Source: Solimonas terrae (GTDB taxonomy: Bacteria > Pseudomonadota > Gammaproteobacteria > Nevskiales > Nevskiaceae). Taken from it: a stretch of DNA of 64,000 nucleotides. The notes below the pieces were generated by a model that worked only from the letters and a program-made list of their open reading frames with translations, was not told the DNA's origin and searched no databases. Location of the stretch: positions 62,001 through 126,000 of the forward strand of contig NZ_JAAMOW010000003.1 of NCBI RefSeq assembly GCF_011067135.1, read 5' to 3'. Below, in pieces: positions 1,481 to 40,076 of the stretch. Numbering within the stretch: position 1 is the first letter of the stretch; each line of letters opens with the position of its first letter. The position numbers were made by a program, and so were the translations under genes.

Positions 1481-1619
1481 CGCCCGTGAAAAAGCCGTAG
1501 CGAGCGACGGGCGTTTGCGCGTCGCCGGAGCACGGCAGGCGCAGCGTACTCCGGTACGCCGGGATTGCCGGCACCCCCCGGCGCGCAAACGGCCGAGCGC
1601 GGCAGCCTGGTTCGCAAAC
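1481..1619 (-). repeat. GTAC-capped structured repeat, copy A
   Basis: Lies directly after the pyruvate carboxylase stop codon (1620-1622), read on the minus strand. Plus-strand landmarks: GTAGCGAGCG at 1497-1506; a 13-bp helix 1512-1524 with 1579-1591 (one G.U); CGGCA 1533-1537 with TGCCG 1566-1570; an apical GCGTAC 1544-1549 / GTACGC 1554-1559 closing a TCCG loop; then GCCGAGCGCGGCAGC at 1592-1606. The order of blocks is that of copies B and C, although helix sequences differ. An alternative hairpin CGCCCGT 1481-1487 / ACGGGCG 1507-1513 would compete with the 13-bp helix. This is the most diverged copy, and its outer stem is weak. Confidence 0.65.
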
Positions 1620-4600
1620 TCAGTCGCCGAGCACCACCAGCAGATCCTTGCCGTTCACCGTCACGCCCGAGGCGACGAGCACCTGCTTGATGCTCGCATC
1701 GCGCGGCGCGGCGATCACGGTTTCCATCTTCATCGCTTCCAGCGAAATCAGCGGGTCGCCCTTGCGCACGCTGTCGCCGACCTTGACCGCGACGCGTGAC
1801 ACCATGCCCGGCATCGGCGCGCCGATCTGGTTGGCATCGCCCTCGGCTGCCACCGGTCGCGCATGCGCCGCCTTGGCGCCGGCCTTGTCGATGCGCACCG
1901 CGCGTGGCTGGCCGTTGAGTTCGTAGAACAGCTTCTCGCTGTCGTCGGCGTCGGCGCGACCCTGCAGGCGGATCACCAGCGACTTGCCCTGGTCGATCTC
2001 GACCGCGATCTCTTCCTGCTCCTGCATGCCGTAGAAGAAGGTGGTGGTCGGCAGGCGCGAGACGTCGCCGTACTTCTTCACATGCTCGGCGTAATCCTGA
2101 TAGACCTTCGGATACATCAGCTGCGAGGCGAGATCGCGATCGGACAGTTCTTCGCCGATCGTCTGTTCGGCGGCCTTGCGCGCGGCGTCCAGATCGACCG
2201 GCGGCAGGCTCTTGCCGGGCCGTTCGCCGAGCGCGGGTTTGCCCTTGAGAATCCTGGTCTGCAGCGCCTTGGGCCAGCCGTCCGCGGGCAGGCCGAGATC
2301 ACCGCGGAACAGCTGCACGACCGACTCCGGAAAATCGATGGCCTTGTCCGGGTTCTCGACATCGGCCGGCGTCAGTTCGTTGGACACCATGAACAGCGCC
2401 ATGTCGCCGACCACCTTCGAACTCGGCGTGACCTTGACGATGTCGCCGAACAGGCGATTGACGTCGGCATAGGCCTTCGATACTTCACCCCAGCGGGCGT
2501 CGAGGCCGAGCGAGCGCGCCTGCTCGCGCAGGTTGGTGTACTGGCCGCCGGGCATTTCGTGACGATAGACGTCGGCGGTACCGGACCGGATGTCGGCCTC
2601 GAACGGCGCGTAGCGGCGCCGCACGTCCTCCCAGTAATCGGAAAGTTCCTGCAGCGCATCGAGATTGACGCCCGGATCGCGTTCACTGCCCGACAGGCTC
2701 GCGGCGATCGCGCCGAGGTTCGGCTGCGAGGTCAGGCCCGACATCGAGTCCAGTGCGCCGTCGACCGCATCGCAGCCGGCTTCGACCGCGGCGAGCACGC
2801 TGGCGGCGGCAATGCCGCTGGTGTCGTGCGTGTGGAAATGGATCGGCAGGCCGATCTCCTGCTTGAGCGCCCGCACCAGTTCGCGCGCCGCGCGCGGCTT
2901 GCAGACGCCGGCCATGTCCTTGATGCCGAGCACGTGCGCGCCGGCCTTTTCGAGGGCCTTGGCCATCGTCACGTAGTACTTCAGGTCGTACTTCGGACGT
3001 GTGGCATCGAACAGGTCGGCCGTGTAGCAGATCGTGCCTTCGCAGACCGCGCCGGCTTCGATCACGGCGTCCATCGCCACGCGCATGTTGTCGACCGCGT
3101 TCAGCGAATCGAACACGCGGAAGATGTCGATGCCGTTCTTCGCCGCCTGCTGCACGAAGAACTGCACGACGTTGTCGGCGTAGTTCGTGTAGCCGACCGC
3201 ATTGGCCGAGCGCAGCAGCATCTGGAACGGCACGTTCGGAATCGCCTGGCGCAGCTGCGCGAGACGGTCCCAGGGATCTTCCTTGAGGAAGCGCAGCGCG
3301 ACGTCGAAGGTCGCGCCGCCCCAGCATTCGATCGAGAACAGCTGCGAGGCCAGGCGCGCGTAGTACGGCGCGATCGGCGTCATGTCGGCAGTGCGCATGC
3401 GCGTGGCGAACAGCGACTGGTGCGCGTCGCGCATGGTCGTGTCGGTCAGCAGCACCCGTTGCTGATCCTTCATCCACTGCGCGAATCCGGACGGTCCGCG
3501 TTCGAGCAGGATGTCGCGCGTGCCGGGCGGCGGCGCCAGCGCCAGCTCCTTGCGCGGCAGTTTCGGCAGGCGTGGCGGCGGCAGCGGCAGCTTTGGCGGC
3601 TCGCGGCCCTTCATTTCCGGATTGCCGTTGACGGTGACTTCGCCGATGAAGCGCAGCAGCTTGGTCGCGCGGTCGCGGCGCGGCGTGAACACGAACAGTT
3701 CCGGCGTCGTGTCGATGAAGCGCGTGATGCACTCGCCGGACTTGAACTGCTCGTGATTGATGACGTTTTCGAGGAACGCCAGATTGGTCGACAGGCCACG
3801 GATGCGGAATTCGCGCAGGGCGCGATCCATGCGCGCGATCGCATCGCCGGTGGTCGGCGCCCAGGCCGTGACCTTGACCAGCAGCGAGTCGTAGTACGGC
3901 GTGACGACAGCGCCGCCGTAGGCCGTGCCGCCGTCGAGACGGATGCCGAAGCCGGCCGGGCTGCGGTAGGCGAGCAGGCGGCCGTAGTCCGGCGTGAAGC
4001 CGTTTTCCGGGTCTTCGGTGGTGACGCGGCATTGCAGGGCGTGACCATTGAGGCGCACCTGATCCTGCGACGGCAGCGCCGGAATATGGTCACGCGCCGC
4101 ATCGCCGATGCGCGCCCCTTCGGTGACGCGGATCTGCGCCTTGACGATGTCGACGCCGGTGACCTGCTCGGTCACCGTGTGCTCGACCTGGATGCGCGGA
4201 TTGACCTCGATGAAATAGAACGCGCCGGTGTCGGCATCCATCAGGAACTCGACGGTGCCGGCATGCGAGTAGTTGACCTGCCGGCACAGGCGCAACGCGG
4301 CGCCGCACAGCTCCTGGCGCTTGTCTTCCGTCAGATACGGCGCCGGCGCGCGTTCGACGACTTTCTGGTTGCGACGCTGCACCGAGCAGTCGCGCTCGAA
4401 CAGATGAATGAGATTGCCGTGCGTGTCGCCCAGCACCTGCACTTCGACGTGGCGTGCACGGCGCACCAGCTTTTCGACATAGACCTCGTCGTTGCCGAAC
4501 GCGGACTTGGCCTCGCTGCGCGCGCTGTTCATCTGCGTACCGAGTTCGGCTTCCGATTCGATCACGCGCATGCCGCGGCCGCCGCCGCCCCAGCTCGCCT

Positions 4601-5093
4601 TCATCATCACCGGATAGCCGATGTCGGCGACCAGCTTCTTGCAGGCTTCGAGTTCGTAGGGCAGTGCGGCCGATGCCGGCAGTACCGGGACCTGGGCGGC
4701 GATCGCCGCCTTGCGCGCCGCGACCTTGTCGCCGAGCGCGCGCAGCACCGCGGGCTTCGGGCCGATGAAACGGATGCCGGCTTCGGCGCAGGCATCGGCG
4801 AACGTCGGGTTCTCGGACAGGAAGCCGTAGCCCGGGTGGATCGCGTCGACCCCGGCCTCGAGCGCGATGCGGATGATGTCCGGGATGTCGAGATAGGCGG
4901 CGATCGGCTTCTGCCCGCGGCCGACCAGATAGCTTTCGTCGGCCTTGAAGCGGTGCAGGGCGAAACGGTCCTCGTGCGCGTAGATCGCCACCGTGCGAAT
5001 CCCCAGCTCCGCCGCTGCACGCATGACACGAATCGAAATCTCGCCGCGATTTGCGACCAGCAGTTTTCGGACGGGGGCGGGTGACGCGGTCAT
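1620..5093 (-). CDS. pyc: pyruvate carboxylase, single chain
   Basis: 1157 residues, the usual length for the single-chain biotin enzyme that makes oxaloacetate from pyruvate, bicarbonate and ATP (anaplerosis, cytoplasm). Order: biotin carboxylase domain at about 8-455 (LLVANRGEIS at its start, ATP-grasp glycine loop SWGGGGRGMRV near 170, FIEVNPRIQVEHTVTE near 300); carboxyltransferase domain at about 530-810 (TDTTMRDAHQSLFATRMRT); biotinyl carrier domain at the C-terminus with EAMKMET, whose Lys is biotinylated. The ATG at 5093 was chosen because AGGAG precedes it by about 7 nt; a longer frame to 5144 lacks this. Repeat copy A follows its stop. Confidence 0.97.
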   Translation of the reverse strand: MTASPAPVRKLLVANRGEISIRVMRAAAELGIRTVAIYAHEDRFALHRFKADESYLVGRGQKPIAAYLDIPDIIRIALEAGVDAIHPGYGFLSENPTFADACAEAGIRFIGPKPAVLRALGDKVAARKAAIAAQVPVLPASAALPYELEACKKLVADIGYPVMMKASWGGGGRGMRVIESEAELGTQMNSARSEAKSAFGNDEVYVEKLVRRARHVEVQVLGDTHGNLIHLFERDCSVQRRNQKVVERAPAPYLTEDKRQELCGAALRLCRQVNYSHAGTVEFLMDADTGAFYFIEVNPRIQVEHTVTEQVTGVDIVKAQIRVTEGARIGDAARDHIPALPSQDQVRLNGHALQCRVTTEDPENGFTPDYGRLLAYRSPAGFGIRLDGGTAYGGAVVTPYYDSLLVKVTAWAPTTGDAIARMDRALREFRIRGLSTNLAFLENVINHEQFKSGECITRFIDTTPELFVFTPRRDRATKLLRFIGEVTVNGNPEMKGREPPKLPLPPPRLPKLPRKELALAPPPGTRDILLERGPSGFAQWMKDQQRVLLTDTTMRDAHQSLFATRMRTADMTPIAPYYARLASQLFSIECWGGATFDVALRFLKEDPWDRLAQLRQAIPNVPFQMLLRSANAVGYTNYADNVVQFFVQQAAKNGIDIFRVFDSLNAVDNMRVAMDAVIEAGAVCEGTICYTADLFDATRPKYDLKYYVTMAKALEKAGAHVLGIKDMAGVCKPRAARELVRALKQEIGLPIHFHTHDTSGIAAASVLAAVEAGCDAVDGALDSMSGLTSQPNLGAIAASLSGSERDPGVNLDALQELSDYWEDVRRRYAPFEADIRSGTADVYRHEMPGGQYTNLREQARSLGLDARWGEVSKAYADVNRLFGDIVKVTPSSKVVGDMALFMVSNELTPADVENPDKAIDFPESVVQLFRGDLGLPADGWPKALQTRILKGKPALGERPGKSLPPVDLDAARKAAEQTIGEELSDRDLASQLMYPKVYQDYAEHVKKYGDVSRLPTTTFFYGMQEQEEIAVEIDQGKSLVIRLQGRADADDSEKLFYELNGQPRAVRIDKAGAKAAHARPVAAEGDANQIGAPMPGMVSRVAVKVGDSVRKGDPLISLEAMKMETVIAAPRDASIKQVLVASGVTVNGKDLLVVLGD

Positions 5094-5335
5094 CGTTTTC
5101 TCCTGTTTTCTGGTCCCAGCTCGCACGCACGAATCGCGCCGCACCGCGGTCCGCCGGCATTTGCGACGGGCAGCGGCAGGGCCGGCCAGGACTCGGGACG
5201 CGGATTCTAGCGTGCTCGCCGCGCACAGGGCCTGTTCAGCGGCGAGTCCGGTCTGCGGATCGCGTTCAGGGCGCAGACATGCGCCGGCTTATTAGATGCG
5301 GTCGACGCCCGCGATGGCGAGATGGAGGACAAAGG

Positions 5336-6223
5336 ATGAACGACACCTATGCATTCGAATCAGGCGGCGACCGCAAGCTCAAGGTCGTCATTCTCGGCGT
5401 GATCGTGGCGGGATTCGCGACCGGCGCCGTACTGCTGACGCGCCCGGCCAAGGGCGCCAAGCCGGCACCGGCTGCGCCGGCACAGACTGCGGCACCGGAA
5501 CCGGGCGCAACCGGTGCGGCGGCCGGCACGCCATCCGCGCCGCCGGCCGATGCAGCGGCGATGACGCCCACCGCGTCACCGTCGACGGCCCCGGCCGAGG
5601 TCAGCGACTCCGCGCCGGCGCCGAATGCCGCGACCGATGCGGCAGCCGCCACGGTGCCGACCGCCGGCGCGCCCGCCGATGAGCAGGGCAGCGCGGCGCT
5701 CGCCGATGCGTCGCCTTCCGCGGCCGCTGCCCCGGGCCGTGACGACGTCGCTGCCGCAACAGCGCCGAGCGCGGCACCGGCTGCACCGACTGCACCCATG
5801 ACGGACTCGGCCGCTGCGGCGTCGGCGCCGACGACCGCGACCGCTGCCGCCGCTGATTCGGCGCCGGCCGCGACGCCGGCTGCGCCCGCCGACAGCAACT
5901 CGACCGCGACCTTGGCCAGGAAGGCGGCCGACGCCGGCCCGTTCAAGGTCGAATACGTCGGGCAGGCGAGCCGACCGGACGCGCTGGCGTTCCGCTTCTC
6001 GCAGCGCGTGGCCGATGCCGATGACGCCGTCGATCACATCCACATCGTCAACGGTGCCGGCCAGGCCGTGCCCGGCATCTGGATCGCCGGCAGCAATTCG
6101 GATCTGCTGCTCTACCGGAACGTGGCGCCGGGCCAGTATCAGGTGCAGATCGATCCGGCTTTGCAGAGCGTGAGCGGTCGCACGCTGCAAGTGGCCTGGA
6201 GCGGCTCGGTTTCGGTCCAATAG
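5336..6223 (+). CDS. membrane-anchored protein with Ala/Pro-rich linker and C-terminal bMG1-like domain
   Basis: 295 residues. ATG follows a GGAGG-type site. A short charged N-terminus leads into one membrane segment (about 17-37, [18 protein letters not shown]). Residues 40-200 form an Ala/Pro/Thr-rich low-complexity linker. The last ~95 residues are compact: FKVEYVG, then LAFRFSQRV, a GQAVPGIW turn, [18 protein letters not shown] and [11 protein letters not shown]. That pattern resembles the first domain (bMG1) of bacterial alpha-2-macroglobulins, here without the rest of that ~1600-residue protein. I expect a periplasmic domain on a flexible tether. Function unknown; the family assignment rests on motif resemblance only. 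A terminator follows. Confidence 0.7.
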
Positions 6224-6260
6224 CCGCTGCGCATTGCCCTGGAGCCTGTCGACACTGAAT

Positions 6261-6286
6261 GGCGTCGCTGCGGCGGCGCCGTTTTT
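6261..6286 (+). terminator. Rho-independent terminator after the bMG1-like gene
   Basis: GGCGTCG / CGGCGCC can form a 7-bp stem (one T.G) with a CTGCGG loop, followed by GTTTTTG. It lies 38 nt after the stop at 6223 and before tex, so the two genes are probably separate units. Confidence 0.6.
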
Positions 6287-6431
6287 GTGCACGCCGGACG
6301 CTGCGCTGCAAGGCCGGCACGATTGCGGCACAATCCGCCGCCATCGCCTGCGCCCCTTGCGCTGCAGGCACGCACGACCGGTCAGGCGCACCGCGTCGAT
6401 CACCGATTCCACTCCGGGAAACACATCGCTC

Positions 6432-8744
6432 ATGTCCGCCCAGGCAGACGAAATCTCACGTCTCATTGCCGTTGAAATCGCCGCGCAGCCACGACAGGTC
6501 AGCGCTGCCGTCGCCCTGCTCGACGAAGGCGCGACCGTGCCGTTCATCGCACGCTACCGCAAGGAAATCACCGGCGGCCTCGACGACACGCAGCTGCGCA
6601 CGCTCGAGGAACGACTTGGCTATCTGCGGGAACTCGCGTCGCGGCGCGCGACCGTGCTGGAGTCGATACGCTCGCAGGGCAAGCTGAGCGACGCGCTGGA
6701 AGCGCAGATCGCCGCGGCGCTGACCAAGGCCGAACTGGAAGATCTGTATCTGCCGTACAAGCCCAGGCGCCGCACCCGTGCCGAGATCGCGCGCGAACGC
6801 GGACTCGGGCCGCTGGCCGAGGCTCTGCTCGACGATCGCGCGCTGATTCCGGCCGAGGCCGCGGCTGCGTACGTGCAGGGCGAGATCGGCGACGTCAAGG
6901 CCGCGCTCGAAGGCGCGCGCGACATCCTGATGGAGCGCTTCGCCGAGAACGCCGAGCTGCTCGGGCGTCTGCGTGCGCACATGAAGACGCATGCGGTGCT
7001 GCGTGCGAAAGTCGCCGAAGGCAAGCAGGAAGCCGGCGCCAAGTTTTCCGATTATTTCGATCATCACGAGCGCTGGGCGACCGTGCCCAGCCACCGGGCG
7101 CTGGCGATGCTGCGCGGTCGCAACGAGGAAGTGCTGACGCTGGAGATCGAGGTCGATGCCGACGATGTCTCGACGCTCAAGCCGGCCGAGAAAATGATCG
7201 CCGACGCCTATGCGATCCCGGCCGGCGGTGCGGCGGCCAATGCCTGGCTGCTCGATGTCGCCAAGTGGACCTGGCGCGTGAAGCTGTCGTTCAGCCTGGC
7301 GATGGACCTGATGATGGAGATGCGCGAGCGCGCCGAGGACGAGGCGATTCACGTGTTCGCGCGCAACCTCAAGGATCTGCTGCTCGCCGCGCCGGCCGGC
7401 TCGAAGGCGACGATGGGCCTCGATCCCGGCATCCGCACCGGCGTCAAGCTCGCGGTCGTCGATCACACCGGCAAGCTGGTCGACACGGCGACTGTCTATC
7501 CGTTCCAGCCGCGCAATGATCTGCGCGGCGCGCAGGCCGAGATCGCGCGCCTGATCGCGCAGCACCGGGTCGAGCTGATCGCGATCGGCAACGGCACCGC
7601 CAGCCGCGAAACCGACAAGCTGGTCGCCGATCTGCTGGCGAATCTCGCGCCGCCGAAGCCGATCAAGGTCGTCGTCAGCGAAGCCGGCGCGTCGGTCTAC
7701 TCGGCGTCGGCCACGGCTGCAGCCGAATTCCCGAATCTCGACGTGTCGCTGCGTGGCGCGGTGTCGATCGCCCGGCGCCTGCAGGACCCGCTCGCCGAGC
7801 TGGTGAAGATCGAACCCAGGGCGATCGGCGTCGGCCAGTATCAGCACGACGTCGACCAGTACCGGCTCGCGAAGATGCTCGATGCGGTGGTCGAGGACGC
7901 GGTCAACGCGGTCGGTGTCGATCTCAACACGGCGTCGGCGTCGTTGCTGGCGCGCGTGTCCGGCCTCGGTGGTTCGCTGGCCGAGGCGATCGTCGCGCAT
8001 CGCGATCAGGCCGGCGCGTTCAGGACTCGTCGCGAGCTGCTGGAAGTGGCGCGGCTCGGCCCCAAGACCTTCGAGCAGTGCGCGGGCTTCCTGCGCATCG
8101 GCAACGGCGACGAGCCGCTCGATGCCTCATCCGTGCATCCGGAGGCCTATGGCCTGGCCGCCAGGATCGTTGCCGCCTGCGGCCGCGATCTGCGCACGCT
8201 GATGGGCGACAGCAAGACCCTGCGCGCGCTCGATCCGCGCAAGTTCGTCGACGATCATTTCGGCCTGCCGACGGTGCGCGACATTCTCGTCGAGCTGGAA
8301 AAGCCGGGCCGCGATCCGCGCCCCGAGTTCCGGACCGCGACGTTCAACGACGATGTGCACGACATCAAGGACCTGAAGCCCGGCATGATGCTCGAAGGCA
8401 CGGTCACCAATGTCGCGGCGTTCGGCGCCTTCATCGACATCGGCGTCCATCAGGATGGCCTCGTGCACGTCTCGCGGCTCGCCGATCGTTACGTCAAGGA
8501 CCCGCACGATGTCGTGAAAGCGGGCGATGTCGTGAAGGTGCGCGTGGTCGACGTCGACGCCAAACGCAAGCGCATCGCGCTGTCGATGAAAAAGGACGAT
8601 GGCGATGCGGGCGTTCCGTCGTCGACCGCGCGCACGGCTGCCACCCATGCGCCGCGCAAGCCGGCGCCACAGAAGCCGCGGCCGGCCGCAGCGCCGCAGG
8701 GTTCGCTGGGCGCCGCCCTGTTCGACGCCCTGCAGCGCAAATAA
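6432..8744 (+). CDS. tex: S1-domain RNA-binding transcription accessory protein Tex
   Basis: 770 residues, the usual Tex length. The N-terminal helical region carries [17 protein letters not shown] near residue 40, a signature of the family. A YqgF-like RNase H fold follows near 330 ([17 protein letters not shown]). A helix-hairpin-helix segment lies near 500-560 ([20 protein letters not shown]). A C-terminal S1 domain at about 645-715 has [19 protein letters not shown]. The tail is Ala/Pro/Lys-rich. Tex binds nucleic acid and is linked to transcription fidelity; the exact role is not settled. ATG at 6432 aligns with the family N-terminus, though its Shine-Dalgarno is weak. It converges on the hemerythrin gene with a 21-bp gap. 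Confidence 0.95.
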
Positions 8745-8765
8745 ACCGGACGCCGCACTCGCGGC

Positions 8766-9209: not shown

Positions 9210-9262
9210 GATGGCGTTCCTGCGGAGCGGGCGGGGATGTCGGGTGATCGAATCGGGGCGGC

Positions 9263-11398: not shown

Positions 11399-11467
11399 GG
11401 ACCGCAACTCCTCATGGTTCTGTTTTTTTCGCCGCGCGGGCATCGGCCGCGCGGATCGATGCCGCGA

Positions 11468-27568: not shown

Positions 27569-27697
27569 GCTGCGTGGGCGTAGCGAGCGATGGCAGGTCG
27601 GGCGAGGACGGAGCGCAGAAGCCGCAGCGTACAAAAGTACGTGAGGACTTCGAGCACCACCCGCGCCCGAGATGCCGAGCGCAGCAGCCCACGCAGC
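27569..27697 (-). repeat. GTAC-capped structured repeat, copy B
   Basis: Begins 5 nt after the prs stop (27703-27705) on the minus strand. Outer helix GCTGCGTGGGC 27569-27579 with GCCCACGCAGC 27687-27697 (11/11 pairs). GTAGCGAGCG at 27580-27589. Second helix GGCA-GG-TCGGGC (27592-27603) with GCCCGA-GA-TGCC (27665-27676). Third helix GAAG 27618-27621 with CTTC 27648-27651. Apical CGTAC 27628-27632 / GTACG 27637-27641 closes an AAAA loop, flanked by CCGCAG and TGAGGA. Then CGAGCACC and CCGAGCGCAGCAGC. Compared with copy C, every helix differs in sequence but still pairs. Confidence 0.8.
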
Positions 27698-27702: not shown

Positions 27703-28656
27703 CTAGTCGACGTACAGCGAGCTGACCGATTCTTCGGCCGAGATGCGACGGATCGTTTCGGCGAGCAGGCCACTGATCGACAGCTGGCGAATCTTCGGGC
27801 AGGCCGCGGCCGCGGCCGACAGCGGAATCGTGTCGGTGACGACCAGTTCGTCGAGTTCGGAATTGCTGATGTTGCTGATTGCCGGGCCCGACAGCACGGC
27901 GTGCGTGACATAGGCGACGACCTTGATCGCGCCTTCTTCCTTCAGGGCGGCGGCGGCCTTGCAAAGGGTGCCGGCGGTGTCGACGAGGTCGTCGACGACC
28001 ACGCAGGTGCGGCCGGACACGTCGCCGATGATGTTCATCACGCGCGACTCGTTCGGCTTCGGGCGGCGCTTGTCGATGATCGCCAGCTCGGCATCGTCGA
28101 GTCGCTTGGCGACCGCGCGGGCGCGCACCACGCCACCGACGTCGGGCGCGACGACGATCAGGTTCTCGTACTTGCGGCGCCAGATTTCGCCGAGCAGCAC
28201 CGGGCTGGCATAGACGTTGTCGACCGGGATATCGAAGAAGCCCTGGATCTGGTCGGCGTGCAGGTCGACCGTCAGCACGCGGTCGGCGCCGCATTCGCCG
28301 ATCATGTCGGCGACCACCTTGGCCGAGATCGGCACGCGCGCACTGCGCGGACGACGATCCTGGCGGGCATAGCCGAAGTAGGGGATGACGGCCGTGACGC
28401 GGCTTGCCGACGAGCGCTTCAGCGCGTCGAGCATCATCAGCAGTTCCATGATGTTGTCGTTGGTCGGCACGCAGGTCGGCTGCACGACGAACACGTCGCG
28501 GCCACGCACGTTGTCGAGAATCTCGATCTGGATCTCGCCATCCGAGAACTTGCCGACCATTGCCTGGCCGAGCGGCATCTTCAGATAGCCGGCGATGTCC
28601 TGCGAAAGTTTCGGGTTTGCGTTGCCCGAGAACAGCATCAACTTGTGATCGACCAT
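27703..28656 (-). CDS. prs: ribose-phosphate pyrophosphokinase
   Basis: 317 residues. Makes PRPP from ribose 5-phosphate and ATP. Visible signatures: [17 protein letters not shown] near 30; [10 protein letters not shown] near 95; [17 protein letters not shown] near 130; and the PRPP-binding loop [16 protein letters not shown] near 220. The length matches class I enzymes. The gene follows tRNA-Gln and precedes repeat copy B. In related genomes prs and rplY are adjacent; here they are about 2 kb apart. Confidence 0.97.
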
Positions 28657-28846: not shown

Positions 28847-28944
28847 ACGACGTCCGGACCGGGCAGTCCGCGTCCGAACGGGCGCGCATTATATCGGATG
28901 CCCGCGTCCTGTCGGCCACCGCCTGTGCCAGTAGTGCGCATGGT

Positions 28945-29826: not shown

Positions 29827-29876
29827 GGAAACGTCGTCACGGCGTACGCGCGCCGAAAACCGGGAAGGCGCGCAGT

Positions 29877-30509: not shown

Positions 30510-30594
30510 GGTGACGGTTTGCGTGCCGGGCGCATGCCGCTCAGTGCCTCGCGGCCCTCAAGACGTCGGACGCCGTCGAGGGTTGCACGAGCGC

Positions 30595-32328: not shown

Positions 32329-32466
32329 GGGAGCGGATCGGGCAGGCTGTGTATGAAAGACATTATGCGCGCAAGCAGGTTCCGCGTCGCCGCGGAGGGC
32401 CGTGCAGATGCCATGGCGCGGCCCTTGCTGGCGTAGAATAAGCACCAGTTTCAGCCCAGATAGCCA

Positions 32467-33729
32467 ATGGCCCTCGTCACGCTCGGTCTCAGCCATCATC
32501 GTGCGCCCGTGGAGGCGCGCGAACGGCTGGCCTTTACCGAGGCCGATCTGGCGGCCTCGCTGACGCGTCTGCGGGCGCTGCCCGGCATCGACGAGGCGGC
32601 GATCCTGTCGACCTGCAACCGCACCGAGATCATGACCGTCGCCGGTCTCGATTCGGAGCCCCGGCTGGTCGAATGGTGGCGCCGCGAGCGTCAGGCGCCG
32701 GAAGGCTATATCGAGAAATTCGCCTACACGCACCGCGATCTCGGCAGCATCACGCACAGCCTGCGGGTCGCGGCCGGCCTCGATTCGATGGTCGTCGGCG
32801 AGCCGCAGATCCTCGGCCAGATGAAGGATTCCTATGCGCTCGCCAGCGAAGTGAAGGCGATCGGCCCGGTCCTGTCGCGGCTGTTCCAGCATTCGTTCTC
32901 GGTCGCCAAGCTCGTGCGGTCGCAGACCCAGGTTGGTGCGCATCCGGTGTCGGTCGCCTACGCTGCCCTGCAGATGGCCAGGCGCATCTTTGCCGATCTC
33001 AAGGGCCAGACCGCGGTGCTGATCGGCGCCGGCGAAATGATCCGCCTGGTCGCGCAACACCTGCAACGTCACGGCGTCGGTCGCATCGTCGTCGCCAACC
33101 GCTCGCTGGAGCGGGCCGAACGCCTCGCGCGCGAAGTCCACGGCTACGCGATCAGCCTGCACGATCTGCACACCTACCTGCCCGATGCGGACATGGTGAT
33201 CGCGTCGACCGCGGCGCGCGACTTCGTGCTGCGCGGCGAGCAGATGGAACGCGCGGTGAAGTCGCGGCGTCGCAAGCCGGTGCTGATGATCGATCTGGCG
33301 GTGCCGCGCGACATCGACCCCCGGGTTGCCGCGCTCGAGGACATCTATCTCTACACGATCGACGATCTGCGCGCGGTGATCGCGGAGAATCTGAAGCTGC
33401 GCGAGGAAGCGGCGCGGCAGGCCGAACTGCTGATCACCACCCAGGCGCAGCAGTTCACGCGCTGGCTGGAAAGCCGTGATGCCGGCAACACGATCCGCAT
33501 GCTGCGTGCGCAGGCGCGCAGCAGCCGCGACGACGTGCTCGACAAGGCGCGTCGCAAGCTTGCCGCCGGCGAGCCGATCGAGGAGGTGCTCGGCTTCGTC
33601 GCCGACACGCTCAGCAACAAGATCCTGCACGCGCCCTCACAGGTGCTGCGCAAGGCCGATGCGGTCGAGCAGGCCATGCTGCTCAACACCGCGCGCAAGC
33701 TGTTCGATCTGCCCGACGACGAACCTTAG
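32467..33729 (+). CDS. hemA: glutamyl-tRNA reductase
   Basis: 420 residues. N-terminal catalytic domain with LSHHRAPVEARERLAF and AILSTCNRTE, in which Cys50 is the thioester nucleophile. VVGEPQILGQMKDSY near 105 is the substrate pocket. NADP-binding Rossmann domain near 175-300 (TAVLIGAGEMIRLVAQHL; MIDLAVPRDIDP). A C-terminal dimerisation helix follows. It starts tetrapyrrole synthesis from Glu-tRNA. It diverges from the TPR/lolB/ispE operon and is followed by prfA and prmC. Its stop is TAG. The 73 bp to the next ORF hold no clear terminator. Confidence 0.97.
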   Translation: MALVTLGLSHHRAPVEARERLAFTEADLAASLTRLRALPGIDEAAILSTCNRTEIMTVAGLDSEPRLVEWWRRERQAPEGYIEKFAYTHRDLGSITHSLRVAAGLDSMVVGEPQILGQMKDSYALASEVKAIGPVLSRLFQHSFSVAKLVRSQTQVGAHPVSVAYAALQMARRIFADLKGQTAVLIGAGEMIRLVAQHLQRHGVGRIVVANRSLERAERLAREVHGYAISLHDLHTYLPDADMVIASTAARDFVLRGEQMERAVKSRRRKPVLMIDLAVPRDIDPRVAALEDIYLYTIDDLRAVIAENLKLREEAARQAELLITTQAQQFTRWLESRDAGNTIRMLRAQARSSRDDVLDKARRKLAAGEPIEEVLGFVADTLSNKILHAPSQVLRKADAVEQAMLLNTARKLFDLPDDEP

Positions 33730-33802
33730 CGGCGTGGCCACTGGTGCGGCGCCCCGCAGCCCGCTTTCGTCCCGGCTGCGCATTCCCATATTTTTTGAAC
33801 TC

Positions 33803-33976
33803 ATGAAACAAAGTCTTCTTGCGAAGCTGGAAGCGATGGCCGAACGCCGCGAGGAGCGAACCGGGGCGGTAGCGGCTTGCCTGGGCTTGGCAAGCCGCCC
33901 GGTGAGCGCCCGCCGCGGTGCGGCGGGCCAGCTTCGGAGCGGCCGGTTGACGATCCACTCGATGACGCAAGCATGA
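33803..33976 (+). CDS. 57-codon leader ORF duplicating the prfA N-terminus
   Basis: ATG 33803 opens a frame whose first 18 residues ([18 protein letters not shown]) match prfA residues 1-18 at 16 positions, then continue into an Arg/Ala/Gly-rich 39-residue tail unlike RF1. Its TGA (33974-33976) overlaps the prfA ATG (33973) as ATGA. No Shine-Dalgarno is visible before either start, so reaching the end of this ORF could couple translation to prfA. It may be a broken duplicate left by an insertion, or a leader peptide. The first 10 residues look more like typical RF1 starts than those of the intact gene. Confidence 0.5.
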
Positions 33977-34025
33977 AAGCCTCTTTGCTGCAGAAACTGG
34001 AAGCGATGGCCGAACGCCGCGAGGA
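33827..34025 (+). repeat. prfA: direct repeat of prfA 5' coding sequence
   Basis: A 29-bp stretch at 33827-33855, running from CTGGAAGCG to GCGAGGA, is repeated without a mismatch at 33997-34025, offset 170 bp. The 24 bp before each copy are related but diverged (MKQSLLAK vs MKASLLQK). The unit is the start of prfA; between the copies lie two hairpins. Confidence 0.85.
33872..33928 (+). other. two perfect hairpins between leader ORF start and prfA
   Basis: Hairpin 1: GCGGCTTGCC 33872-33881 with GGCAAGCCGC 33889-33898, 10 bp, 7-nt loop. Hairpin 2: GCCCGCCGC 33908-33916 with GCGGCGGGC 33920-33928, 9 bp, 3-nt loop. Neither has a T-tract. They look like palindromic insertion sequence or a regulatory leader fold. 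Confidence 0.6.
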
Positions 34026-35055
34026 AGTCGCGCGCGAGCTCGGCGATGCGGGCGTGATCGCCGACAACGACAAGTTCCGGCGCCTGTCGCAGGAATACGC
34101 GCAACTCGGTCCGCTCGCCGAAAGCTATGTGGCCCATCGCGACGCGACGCGTGCGCTCGCCGATCTCGACGTCATGCAGCGTGATGCCGACGCCGACATC
34201 CGCGCGATGGCCGAGGCCGAATGGCCGGAAGTGCGCGCGCGCATCGAGGCGCTGGAAGCCGAGCTGCAGGGCTACCTGGTGCCCAAGGACCCGCTCGACA
34301 ACAACAACGTCTTTCTCGAAATCCGTGCCGGTACCGGCGGTGACGAGGCGGCGATCTTCGCCGGTGACCTGCATCGCATGTATTCGAAGTACGCCGAACT
34401 GCGCGGTTGGCAGGTCGAGGTCCTGTCGGCCAACGAGGGCGAACACGGCGGCTACAAGGAAATCATCTCGCGCGTGATCGGCTTCGGCGCGTACTCGCAG
34501 CTCAAGTACGAGTCCGGCGCGCATCGCGTGCAGCGCGTGCCGGAAACCGAGGCGCAAGGCCGCATCCATACGTCGGCGGCGACCGTCGCGGTGTTGCCGG
34601 AAGTCGAGGAATCGCAGATCACGATCAATCCGGCCGATCTGAAGTTCGATACCTTCCGCTCCAGCGGTGCCGGTGGTCAGCACGTCAACAAGACCGAGTC
34701 GGCGATCCGCGTCACGCACGTACCGACCGGTGTCGTCGTCGAATGTCAGGAAGAGCGGTCGCAGCACAAGAACCGCGCCAAGGCGCTGGCCCTGCTGCAG
34801 GCACGCCTGTCCGAGGCCGAGCGCGAGAAGAACGCCAGCAGCCGCGCCGCCGAGCGCAAGAAGCTGGTCGGTTCCGGCGATCGCTCCGAGCGCATCCGCA
34901 CCTACAATTTTCCGCAGGGCCGCGTGACCGATCACCGCATCAATCTGACGCTGTACCAGCTCGAACGCGTGATCGTCGGTGATCTCGATCCGGTGATCCA
35001 GCCGCTGCTCGCCGAGGCGCAGGCCGAAGCGCTCGCCGAACTGGGCGACGCGTGA
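33973..35055 (+). CDS. prfA: peptide chain release factor 1
   Basis: 360 residues, full length. The stop-reading tripeptide region is [15 protein letters not shown] (PxT motif PET, near 190). The catalytic loop is [15 protein letters not shown] with GGQ near 235, modified by PrmC. It terminates translation at UAA and UAG. The start at 33973 aligns with the family; the frame extends to 33877 but through non-homologous sequence. The start is overlapped by the leader ORF (ATGA) and the stop by prmC (GTGA), so this gene is translationally linked on both sides. Confidence 0.96.
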
Positions 35056-35879
35056 CCATCGGCGAGGCCCTGATGCAGACGCAGGCCGCGGTCGCGGCCG
35101 TCAGCGACAGTGCGCGCCTCGATGCCGAGCTGTTGCTGGGCCACGTGCTCGGCCTGTCGCGCACGCAGCTGCGGCTGCGACACGACCAGGCCCTGGATGA
35201 AACGCGCGGTCTGCGGCTCGCGACGTTGACCGAGCGGCGCTGCGGCGGCGAGCCAATCGCCTATCTGCTCGGCGCGCAGGGATTCTGGAGCCTCGATCTC
35301 GAAGTGAACGCCGCCGTGCTGGTGCCGCGGCCGGAGACTGAACTGCTGGTCGAATGGGCGCTCGAACGGCTGCCGGTCGGCGAGACGCGTCGCGTTGTCG
35401 ATCTCGGCACCGGCAGCGGCGCGATCGCACTGGCGATCGCCGTCGAACGTCCGCAGGTGCAGATCAGTGCCAGTGACATCAGCGCCGACGCGCTGGCGGT
35501 CGCGTGCCGCAACGCCGCGCGTGTTGCCGCCAGTGTCGATTTCCACGAAGGTCGCTGGTGGCAGCCATTCGCCGCCGCGCGCTTCGATCTGGTGGTATCG
35601 AATCCACCCTACATCGCGGCCGGCGATCCGCATCTGGCGGCGCTGGGCCACGAACCCGCGCTGGCACTCAGTGACGGCGCAGACGGCCTGCAGGCGCTGT
35701 GCGAGATCATCGCCGGCGCGCCGGCGCAGCTGCGGCCGAACGGCTGGCTGCTGCTCGAACACGGCCACGATCAGGGCGCCGCGGTGCGTGCGTTGCTGAG
35801 CGCGGCGGGCTTTGATTCCGTCAGCACGCGCCGCGATCTCGAAGCGCGCGAGCGGGTCAGCGGCGGGCGGTGGCGATGA
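35052..35879 (+). CDS. prmC: release-factor glutamine methyltransferase
   Basis: 275 residues. An N-terminal helical domain (1-75) precedes a SAM methyltransferase domain with [15 protein letters not shown] (near 95), [16 protein letters not shown] (near 115) and the catalytic NPPY motif ([11 protein letters not shown] near 180). It N5-methylates the Gln of the GGQ loop in RF1 and RF2. A GTG start overlaps the prfA stop as GTGA, and its own TGA overlaps the next ATG as ATGA. The prfA-prmC pair is the usual order. Confidence 0.95.
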
Positions 35880-36613
35880 GCGACTTCGCACGCTACAGCC
35901 GCCAGGTCGTCCTGCGCGAAGTCGGCGTCAATGGCCAGCAGCTTTTGCGCGATTCGACGGCGCTGGTGATCGGTCTCGGCGGACTCGGTGCGACGGCGGC
36001 CAGCCACCTTGCGGCGGCCGGCATCGGCCGCCTGCTGCTCTGCGATCGCGATCGTGTCGAGCTCGGCAATCTGCAGCGCCAGGTGTTGTACCGGCAGGGC
36101 GATGTCGGACGCGCCAAGACCGAGGCCGCACGCGCGCAACTCGCGGCGCTGAATCGCGATGTCGAGATCGAAACCTTCGATGCCGACGCTGGCCTGGCGG
36201 CGGTGCGCGATGCCGATATCGTGCTGGATTGCACCGACAACTTTCCCGCGCGTTACGCGATCAACCAGGCCTGTGTCGCGGCCCGTCGGCCGCTGGTGTC
36301 CGGCGCCGCGATTCGCTTCGAAGGTCAGCTCGCCGTATTCGACGGCGTCGGCGGTGCCTGCTATCGCTGTCTCTACGCCGACGACGGCGAGGCGGCGGAA
36401 ACCTGCGAGGAGGCCGGCATCCTCGGTCCGGTGGTCGCGACCATCGGCAGCCTGCAGGCACTCGCGGCGCTCAAATGGTTGCTTGGTCGGCGCGATGACG
36501 CCGGCAAGCTGCAGACCTGGGACGCGCTGCAGATGCAGTGGCGCGTTCACCGCATTCCCGCCGATCCGGATTGCCCGGTCTGCGGCGGCCCCCATCGTGG
36601 AGACAAGCAATGA
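35876..36613 (+). CDS. ThiF/MoeB/HesA-family adenylyltransferase
   Basis: 245 residues. Rossmann ATP site ALVIGLGGLGATAASHLAAAG near 30-50, then RDRVELGNLQRQVLY near 65, and DCTDNFPARYAINQAC near 125. Two zinc pairs are present: CYRC near 165 and CPVC near 238. An E1-like catalytic Cys may lie in AETCEEAGILGPVV (near 183). Such enzymes adenylate the C-terminal Gly of a ubiquitin-like sulfur carrier (MoaD or ThiS). No carrier gene is nearby. Translationally coupled to prmC upstream and to the JAMM-like gene downstream (ATGA overlaps). MoeB versus ThiF cannot be decided. Confidence 0.9.
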   Translation: MSDFARYSRQVVLREVGVNGQQLLRDSTALVIGLGGLGATAASHLAAAGIGRLLLCDRDRVELGNLQRQVLYRQGDVGRAKTEAARAQLAALNRDVEIETFDADAGLAAVRDADIVLDCTDNFPARYAINQACVAARRPLVSGAAIRFEGQLAVFDGVGGACYRCLYADDGEAAETCEEAGILGPVVATIGSLQALAALKWLLGRRDDAGKLQTWDALQMQWRVHRIPADPDCPVCGGPHRGDKQ

Positions 36614-36945
36614 CCGATGTTCTGGTGATGCCGCGCCATCTGGCGATTCGCATCCTGCACGAGGCGCAGATCGCGCAGCCCGAGTCGATCCGCGGCGTGG
36701 TCGCCGCGCGCGCCGGCGAACCCGCTGCCTTCCTGAAAAATCGCGATGCCGTTGCCGACGGCGATGCCTTGTGGGCGAACCTCTGGTCGCATCCGCAGGC
36801 CGAGGCGATACCGCTGACCAGCGAATTGCGCGACGGCTTGCTGAGTCTGGTGGTGTCGCTCAATACCAAGGGCGTACTGGAAATGCGGGCCTGGCGCCTG
36901 ATCGCCGGCACGGCGCAGGAACAGGTGCTGAAGATTCGCGATTGA
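36610..36945 (+). CDS. degenerate JAMM/M67-like protein
   Basis: 111 residues. Length and order of elements suggest an MPN/JAMM fold: VMPRHLAIRILHEAQIAQPES, then DALWANLWSHPQAEAIPLTSE, and SLVVSLNTKGVLEMRAWRL. The metalloprotease motif Glu...His-x-His-Pro...Ser...Asp looks lost: the first His of HSHP is replaced by Trp (WSHP), and the usual Glu before the central Gly is Ser. If the fold is right, it is probably catalytically dead. JAMM proteins often pair with ThiF/E1-like enzymes, which is the context here (ATGA overlap). This assignment is motif inference; an unrelated fold is possible. Confidence 0.5.
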   Translation: MTDVLVMPRHLAIRILHEAQIAQPESIRGVVAARAGEPAAFLKNRDAVADGDALWANLWSHPQAEAIPLTSELRDGLLSLVVSLNTKGVLEMRAWRLIAGTAQEQVLKIRD

Positions 36946-37043
36946 ACCTGGAGCTGTCGCGATCTGCCGACGCTCTGTTGTCGATTTCCCCCGCCCGCCG
37001 CGGACAGGGACGCCCTGTGGCGCCGGGCTTTTCGCGGCGCCCC

Positions 37044-37070
37044 ATCGGCCGGGCAGGATGACCGGCCGAT
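37044..37070 (+). other. perfect 9-bp hairpin after the prfA-prmC operon
   Basis: ATCGGCCGG 37044-37052 pairs with CCGGCCGAT 37062-37070, 9-nt loop, no T-tract. It lies 99 nt after the last gene of the operon; it could help end transcription. The remaining part of the 283-bp gap to the GST gene shows nothing I can name. Confidence 0.35.
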
Positions 37071-37228
37071 TCGTCATCGCGGCACGGATGCCGCGTCGAC
37101 GATCGTGCCGAACAAGAGCGCAAAGGCCTGCCAGGCCACTCGGCCGCTGCGTGCCTGCCGACGCGCCAGGCGCCGGGCAAGTAACGCGCAACACAGGCCT
37201 GGCGATCGTCGAACCGCTGCAGTTCGAC

Positions 37229-37852
37229 CTACGCGCGCGACACCGGCCAGGGATCGGCCCAGGCCGGAATCTTCATCAGGTCGTCGAGCCAGCGGACGAT
37301 GTTCGGAAACGTTTCGAGCGGCATTTCCGATGCGCGCCAATCGCAGGCCATCGACGCCAGCTGGAAGTCGGCGATCGTCAGCCTTTGACAGGCGACGTGG
37401 CTGCGGTCTTCGAGGTGTGCGTCGAGCACGGCCGCGAACTTGTGCAGCGATTTCACCTTGGGCTTGAGCGCTTCGCGATCGGGCGCGCCGATGCCGAAGG
37501 TCGACTTGACGATGTGCTCGAAATAGAACGGGCCGACTTCCTGCGCCCAGTGGCAGTCGTTCCACGACAGCCAGCGCAATACCTGGACCTGTTCGGCCGG
37601 TGTGTGCGCCGGCCACAGATCGGAGCCGGTCTTGATGCAGAGGTAGGCCATGATTGCCGAGGCTTCCCAGAGCACGGTGTCGTCGTCGACCAGGGTCGGC
37701 GCTTTCATGTTGGGATTGAGGGCGGCGTATTCCGGTGCCCGCAAGCCACCGGCCATCAGGTCGACTTCGATGCACTGCGCCTCGACGCCGAGATATTTGA
37801 TCAGCGCCAGCACGCGCCGCGGCGCCTGCGCCTTGATCCAGTAGATTTTCAT
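37229..37852 (-). CDS. glutathione S-transferase family protein
   Basis: 207 residues. Thioredoxin-like N-terminal domain (1-80: MKIYWIKAQAPRRVLALIKY; NPNMKAPTLVDDDTVLWEASAIMAYL) with the cis-Pro region and Glu-Ala-Ser glutathione-binding turn. The helical C-terminal domain (90-205) includes LTIADFQLASMACDWR near 160, the conserved hydrophobic staple Asp. Soluble. The specific class and substrate are not evident. It is encoded away from the release-factor operon and 75 bp from the next minus-strand gene upstream. Confidence 0.85.
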   Translation of the reverse strand: MKIYWIKAQAPRRVLALIKYLGVEAQCIEVDLMAGGLRAPEYAALNPNMKAPTLVDDDTVLWEASAIMAYLCIKTGSDLWPAHTPAEQVQVLRWLSWNDCHWAQEVGPFYFEHIVKSTFGIGAPDREALKPKVKSLHKFAAVLDAHLEDRSHVACQRLTIADFQLASMACDWRASEMPLETFPNIVRWLDDLMKIPAWADPWPVSRA

Positions 37853-37927
37853 TGCCGCACGTCTCCGCTTGTCAGGGATGCATGACCTGACGACGAACGA
37901 GCGTCGCCGAAATCGACAGGCTGTGGT

Positions 37928-38407
37928 TCAGGGCGCGTCCGGCGAACGTGCGCGACGCTGGCGCAGTGCGATGACGATGTGCAGCGCCAGTGCGGTGGCC
38001 GCGCCCAGCCCGATCAGCCAGTGCGCGGTTGCCGTCCAGTCGCGCAGGCGATCGCCGCCGCCGTAGTACAGCAGCAGGCCGCTCAGCAGCAGGAACGCGA
38101 CGCAGCCGAATACGCTGCCGCCGCTGTAGCGATGACGACGCTGGTGCCAGGCGCGGCGGATGTGGATCGGCCAGAGCACGCCGAAACCCCAGACTGCGGC
38201 CATCGCCAGCACGCCGTGCACGACCAGCCACCAGTGCTGCAGCCAGTGGTGTTCCGGTCCGAACTCTGCGGTGACGCGCACGAAGTGTTCGAAAACCAGC
38301 CACAGCATGCCGCTGGCGGTGACGCCGCCGGCGAGCAGGTAGACCCAGAGTTCGTAAGCCTTCGGCAGTCTCGCCGGCAGGCCGTGGTGTGCGGCGTTAC
38401 GGTTCAT
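37928..38407 (-). CDS. four-helix membrane protein, probably haem-b binding
   Basis: 159 residues with four hydrophobic segments (about 22-42, 55-75, 100-118, 128-148). Histidines lie in or next to them: FEHF, HHWLQHWWLVVHG, and TAHWLIGLGAATALALHI. Paired His in helices suggest haem b ligation as in small cytochrome-b or ferric-reductase-type membrane subunits. Neighbours upstream on the same strand are ApbE (10 bp) and the FMN-binding protein, so it may pass electrons from the quinol pool to the flavoprotein. I do not recognise a named family. Confidence 0.65.
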   Translation of the reverse strand: MNRNAAHHGLPARLPKAYELWVYLLAGGVTASGMLWLVFEHFVRVTAEFGPEHHWLQHWWLVVHGVLAMAAVWGFGVLWPIHIRRAWHQRRHRYSGGSVFGCVAFLLLSGLLLYYGGGDRLRDWTATAHWLIGLGAATALALHIVIALRQRRARSPDAP

Positions 38408-38416
38408 GGCCGCGCA

Positions 38417-39292
38417 TCATAGGGTGTCGGCCGGCACCGGCTCCACGGCGACGCCATCGTCGGTCGCCAGCTCGACGACGCGCGCGGCGCACTGATCGAG
38501 CAGTGCGGCGGCAGCCGGCCGTGCGGCCCAGACGATCTTGGTCAGGGCATCGGCATTCATGCAGCTGGCGGCGATGACGCTCACGCTGCCGCGCCGGCAT
38601 TGCGCACTTCGATCGCGACCGTCGCGCAGGGCGCGCGGCTGGAAGTAGTGGCCGCTTGTGGCGCAGGCGGCGTCGCGCAGGCGTACCACACGGGCGAGCC
38701 CGGTCGGCGCGCGCGGATCGCGCAGCGCGATGGTCTGTTCCTTGCCGAAGCAGGCGAGGTCGCCACCGGCATTGACGCAGGCGCTGCCGGCGCCGGCGGC
38801 GCGCAGCACGGCCAGGGCCTGATCGACGGCGTAGCCCTTGGCGATGCCGCCGAAGTCGAGCCACACGGCTTGCCTGAGGCGAACGTGCTGATCGGCCAGC
38901 AGCTCGACGACGCCGAAGTCGGTGTTCGCGTCCGGCGCGACCAGGCTCGCAGGCTCGGGCAGCAGGCCGTCACGTACCAGCGCTGCCGCGACGGCCGGAT
39001 CGAAAACGCCGCCGCTGCGCGTCCAGAAATCGCGCGAAGCGACGAGCACGTTCCACAGATCGGTGCCGACGCGTTGCGCGCCGTGCATGGCGCTGCGATG
39101 CAGCGTCTGCAGCTCGCTGTCCGGCCGGTGAAAGCTCAGTGCCTGTTCGACTTCTTCGATACGCGCATAGGCGGCGTCAATGGCGCCGGCGAGCGCGTCG
39201 TCGGCGAGGCCGCTGGCCTCGACGCGCACGAGGCAACCCATTGCCGGCCGCAGCCGGCGCAGCGCCGGCTCATCCCTGCAGGGCGACGGCAT
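38417..39292 (-). CDS. apbE: FAD:protein FMN transferase
   Basis: 291 residues. Family signatures: RPAMGCLVRVEA near 16, ARIEEVEQALSFHRPDSEL near 45, WLDFGGIAKGYAVDQAL near 145 and ACVNAGGDLACFG near 165; ATSGHYFQ near 210. ApbE cleaves FAD and attaches FMN to a Thr in target proteins; the obvious target is the FMN-binding protein just upstream, which it overlaps by 23 bp. No clear signal peptide is seen with the start used. A start at the internal ATG 39241 would lose conserved sequence only at the very N-terminus. Confidence 0.92.
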   Translation of the reverse strand: MPSPCRDEPALRRLRPAMGCLVRVEASGLADDALAGAIDAAYARIEEVEQALSFHRPDSELQTLHRSAMHGAQRVGTDLWNVLVASRDFWTRSGGVFDPAVAAALVRDGLLPEPASLVAPDANTDFGVVELLADQHVRLRQAVWLDFGGIAKGYAVDQALAVLRAAGAGSACVNAGGDLACFGKEQTIALRDPRAPTGLARVVRLRDAACATSGHYFQPRALRDGRDRSAQCRRGSVSVIAASCMNADALTKIVWAARPAAAALLDQCAARVVELATDDGVAVEPVPADTL

Positions 39293-39797
39293 GGGTGACC
39301 AGCAGACGACGGATGCCGTCGGTCAGGTGCGAGCAGGACAGGGTCGCGCCGGAAATGTTGCGGATATCGCTGCCGGTGACCGGCGGATGCGCGGCGTCCT
39401 TGCCGACGAACTGATCGCGCCAGCGCTCGTTGCGGACCTGGCCGCCGTAGCCTTCGCGGTATTCCATGATCTCGACCTTGCGCACGGCGCCGTCGGCGTT
39501 CAGTGCCAGCGCGTAGGTGATGAAGTCGTGCTTGCCGATCACGCGATCGATATAGAGCCAGCCGCCGTTCTCGGCCTGCCAGACGTGCGGGCGCGGATCG
39601 CTGACGCCGACGCCGGAGCGTTTGGCGATCTCGCTCATCTGCTCGTTGCTCAGCAGCAGCGGGATCGGGCTCAGCTTCACGCCCGGAAAAAGTGCCGCCT
39701 GTACCTGCTGCACGTCGAAATAGACCTCGGCATGGCAGGGCGCGCCGGCGAGCAGGGCGACGGGGGCGAGCCAGCGAAGATCAGGGCGTGAGTTCAT
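39270..39797 (-). CDS. exported FMN-binding protein, covalent flavin site
   Basis: 175 residues. Signal peptide (APVALLAGAPCHA, about 8-23). An FMN-binding domain follows, with the flavinylation motif DIRNISGATLS; Thr152 of SGAT is the expected attachment residue. This is the RnfG/NqrC-type domain of periplasmic electron carriers. It is translated with apbE (overlap), consistent with flavinylation by it. Partners may be the haem-b-like membrane protein downstream. GTAGCC-type repeat sequence and repeat copy C lie upstream, separating it from the peroxidase gene. Confidence 0.9.
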   Translation of the reverse strand: MNSRPDLRWLAPVALLAGAPCHAEVYFDVQQVQAALFPGVKLSPIPLLLSNEQMSEIAKRSGVGVSDPRPHVWQAENGGWLYIDRVIGKHDFITYALALNADGAVRKVEIMEYREGYGGQVRNERWRDQFVGKDAAHPPVTGSDIRNISGATLSCSHLTDGIRRLLVTHAVALQG

Positions 39798-39832
39798 GAA
39801 TGTCTAAGCGGTAAGAACGACGCCCTCATTTT

Positions 39833-39873
39833 GTAGCCTGGGCCAAGCGCAGCGTACCCCGGGGCATCGTGGC
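39833..39873. repeat. GTAGCC-type intergenic repeat (probable)
   Basis: GTAGCCTGGGCCAAGCGCAG followed by CGTACCCCGGGG resembles, from memory, the widespread gammaproteobacterial GTAGCC[C]GGAT...AGCGCAGCG...ATCCGGG repeats. CCTGGG and CCCCGGGG could pair imperfectly. It abuts copy C and fills the rest of the 279-bp gap. Only one copy is in the window. Confidence 0.4.
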
Positions 39874-39935
39874 ATCCGTCGACGCTGGGGTTCGCTGCGC
39901 TCGCCGCCAGCCTGCGGGCCGAAAAAGCGCGGAAG

Positions 39936-40076
39936 AAAAGCGTCGAAGAAGCGTCGCGAGCGAAGGCGGATTGTCCGAGGACGGAGCGGAGACGCCGCAG
40001 CGTACATTAGTACGTGAGGACGTCGAGCACCGCCCGCGGGCAAGCCGCCGAGCGCAGCAGCTTATTCGGCGCTTTT
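39936..40076 (-). repeat. GTAC-capped structured repeat, copy C
   Basis: Starts immediately after the peroxidase stop (40077-40079), minus strand. Outer helix 39936-39952 with 40060-40076: 17 positions, 15 Watson-Crick, one G.U, one G/A. GTCGCGAGCG 39953-39962. Second helix GGCGGATTGTCC 39965-39976 with GGGCAAGCCGCC 40038-40049. Third helix GACG 39991-39994 with CGTC 40021-40024. Apical CGTAC 40001-40005 / GTACG 40010-40014, loop ATTA, with the same CCGCAG and TGAGGA flanks as copy B. GAGCACC and CCGAGCGCAGCAG follow. The outer stem ends in a T-rich run on the minus strand. Confidence 0.8.

Follow-up and report, generated by a model that had tools for sequence, protein, structure and literature searches.

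A GTAC-capped palindromic repeat with a conserved fold behind stop codons of Solimonas terrae, and its probable relatives in other proteobacteria

What kind of element keeps its fold while its arms change in sequence, and why does it lie directly behind stop codons? The question is raised by a 64,000-nucleotide stretch of Solimonas terrae (assembly GCF_011067135.1, contig NZ_JAAMOW010000003.1, positions 62,001 to 126,000; the whole stretch is called the window here), in which a first-pass annotation had noticed three copies of a structured, GTAC-capped element at 1481-1619 (copy A), 27569-27697 (copy B) and 39936-40076 (copy C). Their locations, their ordered sequence blocks and their differing yet paired arms were all verified, as was their position, in one orientation, after minus-strand stop codons at 1620, 27703 and 40077. 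The exact core, GCAGCGTAC-N4-GTACG, is found at 1541, 27624 and 39997. Allowing up to two mismatches yields five core matches in the window, a number reached by none of 100 shuffles; one of the five is the opposite strand of copy A and one lies elsewhere. As described below, the fold is conserved while the arm sequences turn over, a register with stop codons recurs in several lineages, and relatives in Escherichia coli are present or absent by strain. We consider the element probably to be a non-autonomous mobile palindrome, similar to a miniature inverted-repeat transposable element (MITE), that is recognised by its fold.

Computed folds present the element, about 92-160 nt in size, as one long rod around the tip CGTAC-N4(5)-GTACG with paired ends. 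Small, asymmetric internal loops, in most cases GCA facing GA, separate its helices. Solimonas, the alphaproteobacteria and Pseudomonas have an identical loop beside the tip helix CGTAC/GTACG, with the consensus GC[GCA]GC opposite GT[GA]GC. The computed Solimonas structure has another GCA/GA loop after it and an outer loop of GA opposite a single A; the alphaproteobacterial copies have a further-out GCA/GA loop with its strands exchanged, and the outer loops of Pseudomonas differ. Between the loops the arm sequences are variable. The proposal that selection acts on this fold was supported, as compensated changes lay far above both shuffled and slid controls. Using RNAalifold structures, 35 of 53 pairs had changed on both sides in Solimonas and 37 of 47 in the alphaproteobacteria. 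Double-changed cells numbered 104 in Solimonas, against a shuffled mean of 34.4 (0 of 500 shuffles) and 22-30 with slid structures, and 365 in the alphaproteobacteria, against 119.6 when shuffled and 76-119 when slid. The size of this excess is not a probability because the structures were derived from the very alignments on which the pairs were counted, with rows that are related to one another. Compensated change was also present between orthologous Pseudomonas copies that follow one gene, presumably puuC, at 8 of 36 pairs across nine copies.

The alignments were curated as follows: A5 held 36 of 37 listed loci (L022 excluded); A6 held 10 of 14 listed loci plus L141, with L002 and L012 excluded for nested inserts, L060 as another genus and L144 for a missing part; and A7 held 9 of 10 listed loci, L320 being excluded as half replaced. 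The orthologous copies after the puuC-labelled gene are L042, L050, L062, L076, L125, L331, L347, L349 and L352. At the same site the element is cut down to roughly its first 32 nt in L325 and L327, and other species carry different palindromic sequences there.

The first-pass annotation had also proposed a covariance-model search of the genome. Our model R1, built from 12 copies (alignment A8) including B and C and excluding A, found at least 33 independent places in the 4.42-Mb host genome (G000), from 34 rows at E<=0.01 of which one was the reverse strand of another. Since no more than 150 first-look candidates were scored in each genome, such place counts are lower bounds. The host genome has 11 exact cores, against 0 with a reversed-pattern control, and 17 cores against 4 when one mismatch is allowed. 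Within the genus the distribution is patchy: two of the 11 genomes have the exact core (11 in S. terrae, three in one relative, 0 in the other nine), R1 matches occur in at least 7 of the 11, and across all 41 genomes searched, that of S. terrae counted, three carry exact cores. The places found by R1 include copies with a tip changed from GTAC (L416, L417, L420). A 92-nt short form with the tip CAGCCGTAC-N4-GTACGGCGAGC is present in G000, G001, G003 and G010 (L425-L432), two of its G000 copies having GTGC/GCAC in place of GTAC. Apparent nested palindrome-like inserts lie near the tip in L002, L012, L013, L014, L040 and L104, for example TTCGGCC...GGCTTGAGCCGAA in L012.

The biased orientation after stop codons held across the host genome. 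Of all 33 places, 29 have an equally oriented open frame of at least 100 codons (open frames, not curated genes) whose stop lies between -5 and +44 nt relative to the right edge of the element, compared with 12 of 33 on the mirror side and 10 of 168 at shifted positions. In 22 of these 29 the stop lies at +10 to +14 nt from the model edge. Inspection of 20 chosen R1 places with 70-codon frames found a stop at 18, and all eight places inspected in further species of this genus had the register. For loci picked by the core pattern, again with 70-codon frames, a stop at +60 to +91 was found in 13 of 14 from Solimonas, 37 of 47 from alphaproteobacteria and 29 of 37 from Pseudomonas, with mirror counts of 2, 9 and 6; shifted controls for core-pattern loci gave 3.7-10.5% (7-11% for these three groups). 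By raw count the stop is TAG beside 9 of the 29 copies in G000 and 31 of the 98 in the stop-linked set, often with CTAG at the junction.

Similar cores in other gammaproteobacteria, mentioned in the first-pass annotation, were indeed found in Pseudomonas and the enterics. The core pattern occurs in at least 115 stretches of the GTDB collection, which are alpha-, gamma- or deltaproteobacterial apart from a few other records, and in 8 viral contigs. These GTDB loci were picked by exact core pattern, among the matches listed; the conservation of their core thus reflects that choice, and they enter R1 scoring with an advantage from the core. The pattern reaches 116 copies in one deltaproteobacterial metagenome-assembled genome (MAG) and 19 and 17 in two Pseudomonas, the reversed-pattern control being 0 in all three. 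On 32 hand-picked loci, R1 scored five E. coli copies at 67-78 bits, Providencia at 77, Ewingella at 82, P. delhiensis at 96 and other Pseudomonas at 33-61, followed by a Legionellaceae MAG (49), four alphaproteobacterial loci (35-41), Desulfovibrio (37), Rickettsia (33), the delta MAG (32) and Rikenellaceae (23); in the Streptomyces locus L084 (20.8 bits), L085 and L126 (21-25 bits) the match barely exceeds the core. A second element, scoring 61 bits, lies in Pseudomonas borbori (L101, 4890-4999) outside the exact-core matches of that locus. In Providencia vermicola (L133, 4902-5013) a copy occupies the 16S-23S rRNA spacer, between a tRNA and the 23S gene.

Among 295 genomes of Enterobacteriaceae, each scored for two candidates, 127 contain a match to an E. 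coli copy (E<=1e-8). E. coli itself has a match in 5375 of 5426 genomes, with a median of 5 places, and a 151-nt search finds 6 places in K-12 BW25113. These copies are probably the RSA/BEE95 repeats, of 152 bp and 6 copies, and RSA/BEE95 is probably a member of the element's family. The tip, loops and fold are in common with the Solimonas element, and the Solimonas-built model matches all five of the copies given to it. They differ in that the tip loop is often 5 nt, GGAG replaces GCAG beside the tip, the inner arms are largely conserved, and most lie away from stops.

The E. coli copies supply the evidence for movement. Filled and empty sites differ by 146 nt at ucpA-cysP (with an additional short allele differing by 133 nt), 145 nt at pheM-pheS, 142 nt at pyrH-frr and 146 nt at rlmKL-ycbX. 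Query coverage was at least 80% in 4749 of 5375 matching genomes for pheM-pheS, 3480 of 5374 for pyrH-frr and 4154 of 5375 for rlmKL-ycbX. AAG stands on both flanks at ucpA, as judged against the O157 allele, CTAAGA flanks the ycbX copy, and pheS probably has a TAA flanking repeat, with a 2-nt difference. Four strain-variable sites, with flanking repeats at two and probably three of them, therefore indicate that the E. coli relatives are mobile and MITE-like. The outer arms differ by copy (AACTTGGTTCA/TGAACTTAGTT at ucpA, GTCTGGTTAT/ATAATCCAGAC at frr) and are found neither in the empty sites of pheS and ycbX nor at the junction in frr; at the sites seen, the outer arms thus belong to the element and not to the target. 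A 10-nt direct repeat, spanning the stop codon, surrounds the copy in Pseudomonas L154, but flanking repeats are close to chance over the 98 stop-linked copies as a whole. Of the roles offered in the first-pass annotation, the selfish palindrome is the one most strengthened, by the four E. coli sites that are filled or empty by strain.

For a mobile palindrome of this kind, we infer that an enzyme acting in trans would read the folded shape, namely the tip and internal loops, instead of the arm sequence, and the arms could drift or be exchanged while still paired. In some lineages, insertion or survival of copies may have favoured a place directly behind a stop, in one orientation, which would leave the gene unbroken; a secondary effect in the 3' untranslated region (3' UTR) is possible. 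Several observations weigh against this explanation. The register is mostly missing in the enterics (1 of 11, mirror 1), the delta MAG (7 of 28, mirror 4) and other groups (9 of 20, mirror 7), and a wider window blurs it to 98 of 157 copies against 55 mirrored, same-sequence repeats and copies near a locus end being left out of the 157. These uneven counts make the register a property of some lineages and not of all. Flanking repeats of at least 6 nt were found around 12 of 98 stop-linked copies, barely above the 6.6% expected by chance, and pyrH-frr has no clean duplication. The filled and empty evidence is from E. coli; none of the Solimonas copies had an empty counterpart among the sites seen, and when orthologous empty sites were sought, the prs 3' regions of relatives looked unrelated by eye. 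A similar search for copy C found only short partial matches to its 549-aa gene, in 4 of the other 10 genus genomes.

Nor was a helper gene found among the Y1_Tnp loci and the three inter-copy intervals looked at, which also counts against the mobile palindrome. Y1_Tnp matches above 30 bits occur, within the genus, in only the two exact-core genomes (2 of 11). A RAYT helper was rejected, as 0 of 12 fetched Y1_Tnp loci contain the core, and a composite transposon in the delta MAG was likewise set aside, with no obvious transposase seen by eye, and with no family search, among the open reading frames (ORFs) of those three intervals. A bolder version of the idea, which we advance tentatively, is a fold-addressed element: a helper would read the folded single strand, by its tip and GCA/GA loops, and place it after stops in one orientation in several proteobacterial groups, with the E. 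coli RSA-like copies forming a relaxed branch of the superfamily.

The element might instead be a cis-acting 3'-UTR RNA element, with a fixed distance and orientation after stops because its fold would work within the upstream gene's mRNA, on stability, translation termination or RNase cleavage. We regard this as rather unlikely, even though the register of 29 of 33 in G000, also seen in the alphaproteobacteria and Pseudomonas, is what it would give, and several Pseudomonas have kept orthologous copies, with compensated changes, after one gene. Translation is known to be affected by REP elements that lie near stop codons. For ERIC, PMC2229807 reports RNase E cleavage and a destabilising effect, a further point in favour. 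The enteric copies, mostly without register, speak against such a role, and exact cores in just 3 of 41 genomes argue that it is not a core function. Wobble pairs, considered as a sign of selection on the mRNA strand, gave a mixed outcome. In the alphaproteobacterial alignment, with the structure taken from the core strand, G.T numbered 100 against 33 for A.C (29 columns against 6); with the opposite-strand structure the counts were 63 and 41 (17 against 9 columns, not significant), and the Solimonas core strand gave 30 and 17, also not significant. Counted more crudely over 210 copies, the totals were 392 against 344. Near the tip A.C, which is G.U on the mRNA strand, exceeds G.T in Pseudomonas (33/3), the delta MAG (21/1) and the enterics (80/6), an excess that favours the 3'-UTR explanation and that a few conserved columns may cause. 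Further from the tip G.T is in excess or near parity in the crude count, and there, as in the alphaproteobacterial alignment, the mRNA strand is not favoured.

Termination, another role named in the first-pass annotation, received little support, and we give almost no credence to an intrinsic transcription terminator. It would account for a strong hairpin directly after stop codons, and U-tracts at the downstream edge are somewhat more frequent than in controls (6 of 98 copies against 8 of 389), copy C, with edges AAAAGCG.../...CGCTTTT, being one of the six. The other 92 of 98 copies are without a U-tract, and in two Pseudomonas loci (L035, L196) a separate terminator-like hairpin lies, by eye, beyond the element. 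Insertion into a pre-existing palindromic target, the outer stem being host sequence, is improbable. The 133-nt ucpA allele of ST2747 retains 13 extra nt including an 11-nt palindrome, GAACCTGGTTC, that is seen on both sides of the filled site, as a duplicated palindromic target would leave it; the O157 allele is shorter and fits a 3-nt AAG duplication, so the palindrome is better read as a deletion remnant. The absence of the arms from the empty sites opposes a host-derived stem as well. Pairing also stops short of coding sequence (12 of 98 reach a coding part, 8.8% being expected by chance), and the outer stem as an inverted copy of the coding end was rejected on the same count. Finally, pairing might be kept by mutation itself, if template switching in DNA palindromes rewrote one arm from the other. 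The block-like arm replacement in L349 and the long, nearly perfect outer stems are consistent with such a process, which would erase internal loops; yet the GCA/GA loop next to the tip does not differ between Solimonas, the alphaproteobacteria and Pseudomonas, and we judge this explanation very improbable.

Rfam gave no match at the gathering threshold on the elements scanned (the window and 14 loci), the best weak match being sX9 at 31.4 bits with 44 needed; the match to a named Rfam family that the first-pass annotation had allowed for did not appear. Among the matches listed in Creative Commons-licensed PubMed Central texts, where sequences in figures are not searchable, we found no account of this core or of a cross-phylum family. 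REP repeats are small palindromes near gene ends with a GTAG head, and the present element has no GTAG head at its tip. Integron attC sites have conserved end boxes and a variable centre; the element, with a conserved centre and variable ends, is the opposite, and attC was rejected. ERIC/IRU/RU-1 likewise folds as a rod, with a GA/GA loop next to its six-pair tip (GCTTAC-ATAA-GTAAGT), and was rejected as a member since neither of two ERIC loci (L433 and L435, of three fetched) matched R1 at E<=0.5. ERIC is reported to be mobile and intergenic, and to have a TA target duplication (PMC2229807, PMC2759123). YPAL/RU-2 is a palindrome likened to the element by description and not by sequence; PMC2229807 gives it about 168 bp, target duplications of 3-26 bp and target sites that have dyad symmetry or adjoin it. 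In R. rhipicephali the copy L061, a palindrome of 100+ nt, scores 33.3 bits, and its likeness to the Rickettsia palindromic elements (RPE), of 105-146 bp (PMC2229807), is again by description. CIR repeats of Caulobacter and Brucella are outlined there as alphaproteobacterial, intergenic and about 110 bp, with GANTC and two arms joined by a linker (PMC2229807), whereas the element is a single rod; they are set apart by description only.

Within the window, the three copies differ in quality. The inner fold of copy A (1497..1607, plus strand, core 1541-1558) scores 71.2 bits with R1; its outer stem is poor, which is the weak point of the set, and it folds less cleanly than other copies, as does L001. 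It is followed by the TGA stop (1620..1622, minus strand) of a pyruvate carboxylase ORF at 1620-5144. Copy B has a computed outer stem formed by GCTGCGTGGGC (27569..27579, plus strand) and GCCCACGCAGC (27687..27697, plus strand) around an inner fold at 27580..27689 (plus strand, 122.3 bits, core 27624-27641), and the TAG stop (27703..27705, minus strand) of a ribose-phosphate diphosphokinase at 27703-28656 lies 5 nt from the stem. The computed 17-nt outer stem of copy C has its left arm at 39936..39952 (plus strand) and its right arm at 40060..40076 (plus strand), abutting the TAG stop (40077..40079, minus strand) of a 549-aa ORF at 40077-41726 that partially resembles MauG/di-haem peroxidases; the inner fold at 39953..40062 (plus strand, core 39997-40014) scores 124.5 bits. 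The distal arms are CGGCA/TGCCG in A, GAAG/CTTC in B and GACG/CGTC in C, and copies B and C share 84% identity across 111 nt. Immediately to the left of copy C, at 39840-39922, is another GC-rich palindromic repeat, GCGCAGCGTACCCCGGGG...CCAGCCTGCGGGCC, which has the string CAGCGTAC in common with the element and is without the GTAC-N4-GTAC tip.

Small palindromic repeats have so far been catalogued by lineage under separate names. With the tip and loops in common, and Solimonas and E. coli copies covered by a single covariance model, several of these named repeats may well form one superfamily. The stop-codon register is sharp and testable, and may mean insertion coupled to gene ends, survival there, or a fold acting on mRNA. 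Because the sites are filled in some E. coli strains and empty in others, these readings can be tested in a laboratory organism.

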